Positions 7,492 through 52,530 of a stretch of DNA of 64,000 nucleotides are shown piece after piece. Under the pieces are notes generated by a model. That model was not told where the DNA came from. It saw nothing but the letters and a program-made list of their open reading frames with translations, and searched no databases. This DNA comes from an uncultured Alphaproteobacteria bacterium (GTDB lineage: Bacteria; Pseudomonadota; Alphaproteobacteria; HIMB59; GCA-002718135), in assembly GCA_902623585.1 (NCBI GenBank), contig CACNUO010000001.1, positions 136,314 to 200,313 of the forward strand. Reading direction: 5' to 3'. The translations under genes and the position numbers were made by a program. Numbering within the stretch: position 1 is the first letter of the stretch; every line of letters begins with the position of its first letter.

Positions 7492-8384
7492 TGTCAAAAA
7501 AAATTATACAATTAGCCGATAAACTTAAAAGTAAAATTTACTCAGATTATAATGCTGGTAAACATACTTGGTTTAGAACAGGAGGTAATGCAAAAATATT
7601 TGTAATAGTTGAAGATAATTTAGAGTTAGAAATTATTTTAAATGAAATAAATAATGAAAATTTTTATATAATAGGTTCAGGCTCAAATCTATTAATTAGA
7701 GATAATGGTTATAATGGAACTCTTATAAAATTAGGCAAGGGTTTTAATACTATTAAAATCAATGATAACAAACTTGAAGTTGGCGCTAGTATTTTAGATA
7801 TTAATTTATCAAATTATGCATTGAGACAAAATATAGAGGGTTTTGAATTTTATAGTGGTATTCCAGGATCAATAGGTGGAGCAGTTAAAATGAATGCTGG
7901 CTGTTATGGTTCGGAAACTGTAGATGTTATAAATAGTATAGAAATATGTGATAAATTTGGTCAAAGAAAAATAATTACAAAAGATAAACTAAATCTAAAA
8001 TATCGATCTTCAAAAATAAATAATACAGATATAGTTACAAAAGCTATATTTAATTTTAATTATGCAGATCAAAATTTAATTAAAGATAAGATTAATGAAA
8101 TAAAGAATAAACGTTTAGAATCTCAGCCAATAAAAAATAAAACTTCTGGTAGTACTTTTAAAAATCCTGAAAATCTTCATGCGGCAAAACTAATTGAGGA
8201 AGCAGGATGTAAAGGTACCAATTTTGGAGATGCATATGTGAGTGATAAGCATGCAAATTTTTTAATTAATAGGGGAAGTGCTTCAGCAACTGATATAGAA
8301 AATCTAGGTAAAAGTATTGTTGAGAAAGTATATGCCAAATTCAATGTAAAATTAGAATGGGAGGTAAAAATAATAGGTGAGTAA
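7491..8384 (+). CDS. murB: UDP-N-acetylenolpyruvoylglucosamine reductase MurB
   Basis: HTWFRTGG, GSGSNLLIRD, GIPGSIGGAVKMNAGCYG motifs. Confidence 0.96.
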   Translation: MSKKIIQLADKLKSKIYSDYNAGKHTWFRTGGNAKIFVIVEDNLELEIILNEINNENFYIIGSGSNLLIRDNGYNGTLIKLGKGFNTIKINDNKLEVGASILDINLSNYALRQNIEGFEFYSGIPGSIGGAVKMNAGCYGSETVDVINSIEICDKFGQRKIITKDKLNLKYRSSKINNTDIVTKAIFNFNYADQNLIKDKINEIKNKRLESQPIKNKTSGSTFKNPENLHAAKLIEEAGCKGTNFGDAYVSDKHANFLINRGSASATDIENLGKSIVEKVYAKFNVKLEWEVKIIGE

Positions 8385-50124: not shown

Positions 50125-50466
50125 GTTAAAATATTTCTTTGCTTGAGTTGCAATCAAATTTTGAACGGGTTTTAAAAAGACAGCAAAACCAATACAATCA
50201 GTAAAGAAGCCAGGTGTAATTAATAGTAATCCTGATATTAATAGAAAAATACCCCCTTTAATTTCTTCAGTGGGCATTACACCTTGAGATAAGTTTCGTT
50301 GTGCATCAAATAATAATTTTATCCCTTGTCTACGCACAAGAAATATTCCCACTAAAGCAGTAGTTAGTATGATTGCGATAGTATTTAAAATTCCAATATT
50401 GGAACCAATTGTTATAAAAATACTTATTTCTATTATTGGAATAATAATAAACGCTAGAAAAATCAC
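50107..50466 (-). CDS. fxsA: FxsA-family membrane protein
   Basis: IEISIFITIGSNIGILNTIAIILTTALVGIFLVRRQG, GILLITPGFFTD-like pattern. Confidence 0.88.
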   Translation of the reverse strand: MIFLAFIIIPIIEISIFITIGSNIGILNTIAIILTTALVGIFLVRRQGIKLLFDAQRNLSQGVMPTEEIKGGIFLLISGLLLITPGFFTDCIGFAVFLKPVQNLIATQAKKYFNSRIRY

Positions 50467-51467
50467 TAACGTACTATACCAGTTTTTTCATCCTGAATGT
50501 TTTTTTCTATTTTATTTTCAAACTCTCTTAATCTTTTATAGACACTAGCTAATTCGATAATTGTTGGCCAAGCTCTAAATAAATATTGTAGTGAACCTTC
50601 TACTCTTCCAAAAGCTCTTATAATTTGTTGCATAACTCCTAGTGTCATGACACCTGCAACAATTGCTGGTGCTAAAAATATGTACGCTGCAAGTACGTTT
50701 GCTTGTAAATAAGCAAGTCTACCGATACTAAAATAAAGATAGTACAAATAACTTTTGAAGTGAATTTCTCTAACTCCTTGAAAAAGTTCTTCTAAAGATT
50801 TTGGTCTAATACTTCCATCATCTTCAGCAATAACCAAAATTTTTCTATAAGCAGCTTCTTTTTTTTGAAGATCATATTCGATACCCACTAATCTTAATAA
50901 CCACGCTAGTACTATCATTAAAATCGTACCTCCTACTGCCCATATAAATGCTCCAGATACTAAACCATACTGCCAATCACCAAACCATAAGATCGGTATA
51001 CCAACTGAAAGAGTCATTAAGAGAGGGAAAAACTCTATAAGTACTAGAACAGATTCAATTAAGCTCGTTCCAAGACCTTCCATAATTCTACTAAACTTTA
51101 TGGTATCTTCTTGAACCCTTTGACTTGCTCCTTCAATAGTTCTCGCTTGATCATAAACACTATGGTACCACTCAACCATTGCTGTCCTCCATCTAAAAAG
51201 AAAATGGGAAGTTAGGAATGAAATTGCAAGTCCTAATGCAATTGAAATAGCAGCAAGTTGAGCAAAACTAAATAAAGCACCCATGTATTCTTGCATAGTT
51301 ATAGCATTCGGTGTCCCAAGTGCTTTTTGGATCATGTCATAAAATTCACCAAACCATTCGTTGATCTGTACATCAATTTGAACTTGAACCCATATAGAAG
51401 TAAGAATGACTACAGAGCCTACATAAGCCCAGACATACCATTTTGGTTCAGTGAAAAATTTAAACAT
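50466..51467 (-). CDS. sbmA: SbmA/BacA-like peptide (SLiPT) transporter
   Basis: WRTAMVEWYHS, EGASQRVQEDTIKFSRIMEGLG pattern characteristic of SbmA/BacA; about 330 aa polytopic, no NBD. Confidence 0.85.
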   Translation of the reverse strand: MFKFFTEPKWYVWAYVGSVVILTSIWVQVQIDVQINEWFGEFYDMIQKALGTPNAITMQEYMGALFSFAQLAAISIALGLAISFLTSHFLFRWRTAMVEWYHSVYDQARTIEGASQRVQEDTIKFSRIMEGLGTSLIESVLVLIEFFPLLMTLSVGIPILWFGDWQYGLVSGAFIWAVGGTILMIVLAWLLRLVGIEYDLQKKEAAYRKILVIAEDDGSIRPKSLEELFQGVREIHFKSYLYYLYFSIGRLAYLQANVLAAYIFLAPAIVAGVMTLGVMQQIIRAFGRVEGSLQYLFRAWPTIIELASVYKRLREFENKIEKNIQDEKTGIVR

Positions 51468-51516
51468 TTTATATATATATGTTCAATTAGATTTTAAAAA
51501 AGAAGGCAGGTATTAA

Positions 51517-51600
51517 TTATTTCTTCTTTTGACGCTTTTTGTTTCTTCTATATTTAGAGCCTCTTTTACGTCTGCCTCTATGTTTTTTTGGATATCCCAT
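51517..51600 (-). CDS. Candidate 27-aa highly basic microprotein MGYPKKHRGRRKRGSKYRRNKKRQKKK
   Basis: Manual translation of minus strand in a gap between sbmA and the LysR gene; 16 of 27 residues Lys/Arg; no clear Shine-Dalgarno. Confidence 0.5.
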   Translation of the reverse strand: MGYPKKHRGRRKRGSKYRRNKKRQKKK

Positions 51601-51642
51601 AATGTAGATACGGTATACAAAAATAAAAAATTAAGTCAAAGA

Positions 51643-52530
51643 CTAATAATGCCAATCTTTAGCTTCATTAAATAAAAAATCCCTAAAAACTTCAAGTCTT
51701 CTATCGTTTTTAAAAGATTCAGAATAAACAAAGTATGTTTGATAAGACGGACCTTCTAAGTTTGGCAGAACACGTACAAGCTGAGGCTTATCTGCAACCA
51801 TGTAATCAGGTAAAGATGCTAAACCTCCACCTTTTTCAATTGCAAGTGACATCGCGTAAATACTATTTACTCTAAATTTAGGTCGTCTTTTTGTTCCTTC
51901 TTTTCCAATTTTTAATATCCAATCAATATTAGATACCGGAGAAGGTAATCCAGCTCCAAAACAAATTAAATCATGTTTATCTAAATCATTTACATTTCTT
52001 GGTATTCCACTTTTTTGTAAGTAATCTGAAGAACCGTAAATGTGGTTATGAAAATTAACAAATTTTTTAAAAATTAAATTTGCCTGTGTTGGTTTCTTTA
52101 CTCTAACTGCAACATCAGCAACTCTTGCAGATAAATCAACTTCTTCATCACTCATAATTAAATTTACATCTATCTCTGGATATTGATTAGCAAATTTAGT
52201 TATTCTTGGTGTGAGCCAAGCCGATCCAAAACCAACAGTTGTGCTTACGGTTAATTTTCCTACTGGTTTAGTTTTTTTATCTAATAATTTTTTTTCAAAA
52301 TCAGAAATTGAAAAATTTATTTGATTTACAGTATTAAATAAATTTTCACCTTGTTCTGTTAACCTTACACCTTTTTGATGTCTTATAAATAAAGGTGTCT
52401 TTAAATCATATTCGAGATCTTGTATTTGTCTACTAAGTGCAGATTGACTAATATTTAGTTTAGCACTTGCCTTAGAAATGCTTCTTGAAATTGCAATTTC
52501 GTAAAATGATTTTAATTTATCCCAGTCCAT
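51643..52530 (-). CDS. LysR-family transcriptional regulator
   Basis: N-terminal wHTH AISRSISKASAKLNISQSALSRQIQDLE. Confidence 0.93.
   Translation of the reverse strand: MDWDKLKSFYEIAISRSISKASAKLNISQSALSRQIQDLEYDLKTPLFIRHQKGVRLTEQGENLFNTVNQINFSISDFEKKLLDKKTKPVGKLTVSTTVGFGSAWLTPRITKFANQYPEIDVNLIMSDEEVDLSARVADVAVRVKKPTQANLIFKKFVNFHNHIYGSSDYLQKSGIPRNVNDLDKHDLICFGAGLPSPVSNIDWILKIGKEGTKRRPKFRVNSIYAMSLAIEKGGGLASLPDYMVADKPQLVRVLPNLEGPSYQTYFVYSESFKNDRRLEVFRDFLFNEAKDWHY

Follow-up and report, generated by a model that had tools for sequence, protein, structure and literature searches.

A strictly conserved, hyper-basic 27-residue microprotein of streamlined marine Alphaproteobacteria, also encoded by phages, is a candidate ribosome-associated RNA-binding protein

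Results

A 27-codon gene for a hyper-basic microprotein lies upstream of sbmA

The features of the locus are compiled in Table 1. They belong to a 64-kb window, i.e. the whole stretch of DNA that was analysed, which derives from an uncultured alphaproteobacterium of the HIMB59/AEGEAN-169 order. Translation of the microgene on the minus strand yields MGYPKKHRGRRKRGSKYRRNKKRQKKK, in which 16 of the 27 residues (59%) are Lys or Arg, as stated in the earlier note that drew attention to this frame. No other ORF within the window is this basic, and none of 20,631 ATG-started ORFs of 20-40 aa from 60 simulated windows of the same dinucleotide content reached 16/27 Lys plus Arg. An Rfam search at the position of the microgene returned no family match. 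The downstream neighbour on the same strand is separated from the microgene by 49 nt (51468-51516). Spacing, co-orientation and, according to the Pfam match, the SbmA/BacA identity of the neighbour are thus as originally described.

Table 1. Annotated features of the microgene locus (positions refer to the 64-kb window).
Feature	Position	Strand	Evidence
SbmA/BacA-like transporter gene (downstream neighbour, context only)	50466..51467	-	PF05992, E 8e-129
Microprotein gene, 27 codons and stop codon TAA	51517..51600	-	translation; frame kept in relatives with synonymous changes
Promoter-like -10 hexamer TATACC, 11 nt before ATG	51612..51617	-	consensus match
Promoter-like -35 hexamer TTGACT, 16 nt from -10, just past LysR stop codon	51634..51639	-	consensus match
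LysR-type regulator gene (upstream neighbour, context only)	51643..52530	-	PF00126, PF03466

The arrangement TTGACT-16-TATACC, or TATAAA at the same spacing, is found in 60 of the 76 loci of the genus as counted by best score, and the -35 hexamer is conserved amid varying surroundings. With a conserved promoter-like sequence of its own, the microgene looks separately transcribed, and it is probably a constitutive housekeeping gene. Transcription is predicted to start about 4 nt before the ATG, which would give rise to a nearly leaderless mRNA. One SAR11 group (L163-L168) carries a near-perfect AAGGAGG before the ATG instead of the element typical of the genus. Of note, Pelagibacteraceae loci L119-L151 share the conserved motif GACAATGCTATATCC about 40-50 nt upstream of the microgene; it stands between the microgene and a divergent Cys/Met PLP gene and might serve both genes as a promoter or regulatory site.

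Codon usage was also inspected. CGT and CGC make up 33% of the Arg codons in the microgenes of the genus; the window as a whole has 9%, and a genus member's ribosomal operon 3%. A reading of this bias as a sign of high expression was dropped, since these codons are so rare in that operon; the enrichment perhaps results from avoidance of long A/AGA runs.

Substitution patterns show purifying selection on the protein

The cellular relatives contribute 114 distinct coding sequences, which specify only 16 proteins. Within the genus, mean pS is 0.47 versus a pN of 0.025 (pN/pS about 0.05), the corresponding values for SAR11 are 0.56 versus 0.028, and third positions vary in 26 of the 27 codons. The large synonymous excess and the variable third positions exclude a chance ORF as well as conservation at the RNA level only; the earlier note had named a frame not conserved in close relatives, or conserved only as a structured RNA, as speaking against its proposal. 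Protein-level selection, for which it had suggested a Ka/Ks check, is evident in both groups. These substitutions show that the frame is a genuine protein-coding gene under strict purifying selection.

Thirteen residues (Y3, P4, K5, K6, H7, R8, G9, R10, R11, K12, G14, S15 and R18) are invariant in all aligned cellular and viral forms, giving the core YPKKHRGRRKxGSxxR; as the search pattern for the viral forms fixed Y3 to K12, only the remaining positions provide an independent test for them. In the cellular set, Lys is fixed at K5, K6, K12, K25 and K27, as is Arg at R8, R10, R11 and R18; positions 21-23 and 26 exchange Lys and Arg freely. The C-terminal half is of variable length, up to 40 residues in phages. 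A peptide acting through charge only, be it a protamine, an antimicrobial or a transported peptide, would not need a fixed choice between Lys and Arg, whereas a structured RNA pocket would. The lack of Lys/Arg exchange at the core therefore argues for a specific site on structured RNA and against loose charge.

The microprotein matched no entry in Pfam, NCBIfam, PHROG or PDB, and its core motif appeared in no paper of the open-access literature searched. Its absence from the family libraries searched is probably explained by a length of only 27 codons. Catalogues of small ORFs may already contain the sequence, with no function assigned.

The microprotein is widespread in a few lineages and changes its neighbours

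Genome searches covered the phylum of the window's organism, and one contig scan is represented by its best 80 loci; the microprotein may therefore extend beyond the lineages described here. The microprotein is encoded in 54 of the 61 nearest genomes, with one copy per genome. It is present in 30 of 36 genomes of the genus besides the window's own (31/37 with it); most of them are 55-89% complete, hence some missing copies are to be expected. In the second family of the order, 23 of 24 genomes carry it, here with the sequence MGYPKKHRGRRKIGSRKRRAKRRAKKK. Among the Pelagibacterales, 97 of 119 high-quality genomes were positive, all belonging to one family (f93, Pelagibacteraceae/SAR11), and a microprotein was detectable in none of the 41 genomes of the sister family f167 (G443 and others). 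It is also encoded in all 6 genomes of a third order, whose genomes do not exceed about 1.1 Mb. Wide sampling of the class (386 and 385 genomes) and of the phylum (349 and 389 genomes) revealed no further convincing carrier. Weak matches in these samples (E 0.001-0.1) were taken as chance, as those inspected mostly proved to be fragments or to overlap longer frames.

The gene neighbourhoods differ between these lineages. In the genus, the LysR gene lies upstream of the microgene in 75 loci, but it is not constant in other lineages. The gene downstream is sbmA in 52 of about 76 genus loci; in 19 it is a gene that we take to be AhpD/CMD-like from reading its sequence, and a few loci have other genes. 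The second family of the order has genes for an MFS transporter and msrB as neighbours. In SAR11, the microgene is found beside the divergent Cys/Met PLP enzyme gene and is followed after 2-15 nt by a Frag1-like gene, or it lies beside an mnmA-like gene. An rpoH-like sigma factor gene lies upstream in the third order (L047, L192-L196), where the distance to the microgene is 62-69 nt in all five loci that show the upstream gene. Altogether, at least five unrelated neighbours occur across the lineages outside the genus, and sbmA is next to the microgene in none of them. The earlier note had suggested that microprotein and SbmA form a peptide-transporter unit, to be checked by constant linkage of the two genes. 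This proposal did not hold: roughly one third of the genus lacks the linkage, no other lineage has it, and neighbours change freely. Judged by this comparison of loci, the adjacency to sbmA is accidental.

Phages encode the microprotein in at least five contexts

An IMG/VR scan with YPKKHRGRRK identified 26 viral contigs encoding the microprotein in at least five phage contexts; this carriage by phages is a new observation. In the largest group, the microgene is located in head modules of HTVC023P/HTVC027P-like podoviruses, between the portal gene and the genes for GroES and the major head protein. In a second context, the microgene belongs to a replication module that also encodes exonuclease, endonuclease I and integrase. 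Two further contexts are represented by contig L208, whose small genes have no known function, and by contig L222, which carries genes for a baseplate wedge protein and a DNA ligase. The remaining context comprises tRNA islands, which contain tRNAs and tmRNA in L238 and L232 and two tRNAs in L214. On the 96.9-kb contig L238 (IMGVR_UViG_3300037483_000361), the microgene (region 8001-8078 and flanks) follows a tRNA-Ser(gga) gene by 18 nt and precedes another tRNA-Ser gene, inside an island of 20 tRNAs and tmRNA; the island of L232 encloses it among 13 tRNAs and tmRNA. No tRNA genes were present in the searched stretches of L208, L213, L216 and L222.

The phage cores are likewise under purifying selection (pS 0.87 vs pN 0.11, with Y3 to K12 fixed by the search pattern). 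The homologous regions of the cultured phages HTVC023P and HTVC027P, which are portal-protein relatives of the largest group, lack the microgene, and none was seen in the stretches read of EXVC032P, 023Pt_psg01, DSL-LC04 and CRP-902. A tblastn search of annotated phages with the 27-mer gave no match, although the low-complexity filter may hide one. As a side observation, the HTVC023P-like carriers encode a very Lys/Arg-rich protein of 80-84 aa two genes upstream of the microgene (7053-7307 in L213; same place in L216).

The microprotein resembles known tiny ribosomal peptides in size and charge, not in sequence

Precedents for tiny basic ribosomal peptides are bTHX, which is seated in a cavity of the 30S head, the mycobacterial, flavobacterial and Borrelia bS22 proteins, mS38 and eL41. 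Like bTHX (TIGR04560; PSRP4 and bTHXm in organelles), with 26-27 aa, the microprotein is hyper-basic, starts with MG and ends with KKK, but it lacks the Thx core RRGKIxxGTYGKxRP. No NCBIfam or Pfam profile, that of bTHX included, matched it at E<=10, no solved Thx chain was hit in PDB, and its alignment to bTHX scored within the range of shuffled sequences (p 0.15-0.93). TIGR04560 detected the Thermus control and nothing above cut-off in 192 Alphaproteobacteria genomes.

The bS22, mS38 and eL41 peptides have 24-33 aa with about 60% Lys plus Arg, are nearly invariant and often lack annotation (PMC10618245). In size, basicity, near-invariance and missing annotation the microprotein is like these occupants of the h44-h45/H68 pocket (mS38 being AURKAIP1/COX24). 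However, they are single or bent helices, whereas the microprotein has an invariant, Pro- and Gly-containing N-terminal half followed by a basic tail. The bS22 pocket is formed by 16S h2/h27/h44/h45 and touches 23S H68 (PMC10618245). In Borrelia, the unannotated and nearly invariant bS22 (61% Lys/Arg) was found only by cryo-EM, and its discoverers predicted more such cases in other bacteria (PMC10618245). Neither Pfam nor NCBIfam models of bS22/AURKAIP1-COX24 matched the microprotein at E<=10, and alignments to bS22-type peptides remained within the shuffled range (p 0.37-0.89). When M. smegmatis bS22 itself was used as phmmer query, only actinobacterial bS22 and mitochondrial mS38 chains were listed; lack of similarity is therefore compatible with use of the same pocket. 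For bL35, p values of 0.06-0.56 were obtained against the E. coli protein and a consensus. The microprotein was not assigned to bTHX, bS22 or bL35, since neither profile searches nor shuffle tests yielded anything clearly beyond composition, but the microprotein may still work like bTHX or bS22. A structure of a SAR11-type ribosome was not found.

Phage genomes are known to encode ribosomal proteins, mostly bS21, which is enriched in aquatic phages, pelagiphage included (PMC6375957). The microprotein shares with phage bS21 that it is a small host-type protein under purifying selection in aquatic phages, including relatives of pelagiphage. It differs in that it is unnamed and without PHROG match, and in that its incorporation into ribosomes is only putative.

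Discussion

In our assessment, the microprotein is probably a lineage-specific ribosomal or ribosome-associated RNA-binding protein, most likely of the small subunit, of streamlined marine Alphaproteobacteria that has also been captured by phages. This reading is favoured by the extreme conservation, the apparently separate transcription, the changing neighbours and the phage copies in tRNA/tmRNA islands. A tiny ribosome-associated protein travelling alone, the second possibility raised in the earlier note, thus fits the evidence better than a peptide-transporter unit; the names bTHX and bS22 suggested for it were not borne out. RNA binding, ribosome membership, an rRNA pocket and an effect on translation are predictions from sequence comparison. 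The invariant N-terminal half, YPKKHRGRRKxGS, would be seated in extended form in one particular rRNA pocket, where Tyr, Pro, His, Gly and Ser together with the basic residues would make specific contacts. The C-terminal half, xxRRxxRRxKKK, whose length is variable and whose choice of Lys or Arg is free, may form a basic tail or helix and thereby neutralise the rRNA backbone close to it. In this way the microprotein might stabilise the subunit or initiation, as bTHX and the bS22/mS38/eL41 peptides do in other ribosomes, and the phage copies would probably influence host translation, a role already proposed for phage bS21. Several findings count against the ribosomal reading. There is no sequence link to a known ribosomal protein or solved ribosome chain, Arg codon use is unlike that of the ribosomal operon (33% vs 3%), and three of the five phage contexts are not tRNA islands but modules for replication or the head, or unassigned ones. 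Absence from f167 and from nearly all other Alphaproteobacteria speaks against a universal ribosomal protein.

The main rival is a non-ribosomal tRNA-, tmRNA- or other RNA-binding factor. Here, the microprotein would act outside the ribosome as a chaperone or processing factor of tRNA, tmRNA, RNase P RNA or an sRNA, and phages would use it for their own tRNA and tmRNA transcripts. Two phages indeed encode it inside tRNA/tmRNA islands, once at 18 nt from a tRNA gene, and the fixed Lys-versus-Arg identity of the core implies a specific structured partner. However, four phage carriers (L208, L213, L216 and L222) have no tRNA in the searched stretch, and across lineages no RNA-processing gene recurs beside the microgene in the bacterial neighbourhoods examined. 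We consider this explanation rather unlikely, albeit ahead of the following ones. It is improbable that the microprotein acts like a protamine or a nucleoid-associated peptide to compact DNA inside cells and phage heads. The Lys plus Arg content of 59% and the position among head genes (portal, GroES-like and major head protein) in the largest phage group would suit such a role, but Lys and Arg are never exchanged at the core, invariance extends to Tyr, Pro, His, Gly and Ser, and other phages carry the microgene in replication or tRNA modules.

Two explanations tie the microprotein to known proteins. It is quite improbable that it represents a true bTHX or bS22 orthologue diverged beyond sequence detection. 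Such an origin would agree with its size class (27 aa for bTHX, about 30-33 aa for bS22) and charge, and the narrow reach of the M. smegmatis bS22 query leaves room for the same pocket; against it stand the missing profile matches, the silence of TIGR04560 in Alphaproteobacteria next to a positive Thermus control, and alignment scores inside the range of shuffled sequences. SbmA-type transporters take up cationic peptides, and the adjacent, co-oriented sbmA gene at a distance of 49 nt would agree with a peptide handled by this transporter. Nevertheless, this idea appears scarcely credible, because roughly one third of the genus has other genes in place of sbmA, sbmA neighbours the microgene in no other lineage, a promoter-like element of its own precedes the microgene, neither a signal peptide nor an export gene was seen, and the phage stretches read carry the microgene without sbmA.

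SAR11 and AEGEAN-169 bacteria rank among the most abundant marine cells, and the window's order, HIMB59/AEGEAN-169, is SAR11 'subclade V'. The relation of HIMB59 to SAR11 is disputed (PMC10308909; see also PMC3815206). The distribution of the microprotein provides a rare character for this question, reflecting either shared inheritance or a gene spread by phages. Moreover, an almost invariant gene of nearly all good Pelagibacteraceae genomes is missing from every family library searched. Tentatively, and at somewhat less than even odds, we propose in particular that the microprotein is an unknown ribosomal protein specific to the SAR11 family, the HIMB59/AEGEAN-169-type order and another small-genome order, that it occupies a defined rRNA pocket, and that several unrelated phages captured it to act on host translation. 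If the microprotein is ribosomal, its phage versions would lengthen the short list of phage-borne ribosomal proteins, and the ribosomes of the most abundant heterotrophs would contain an unlisted part.
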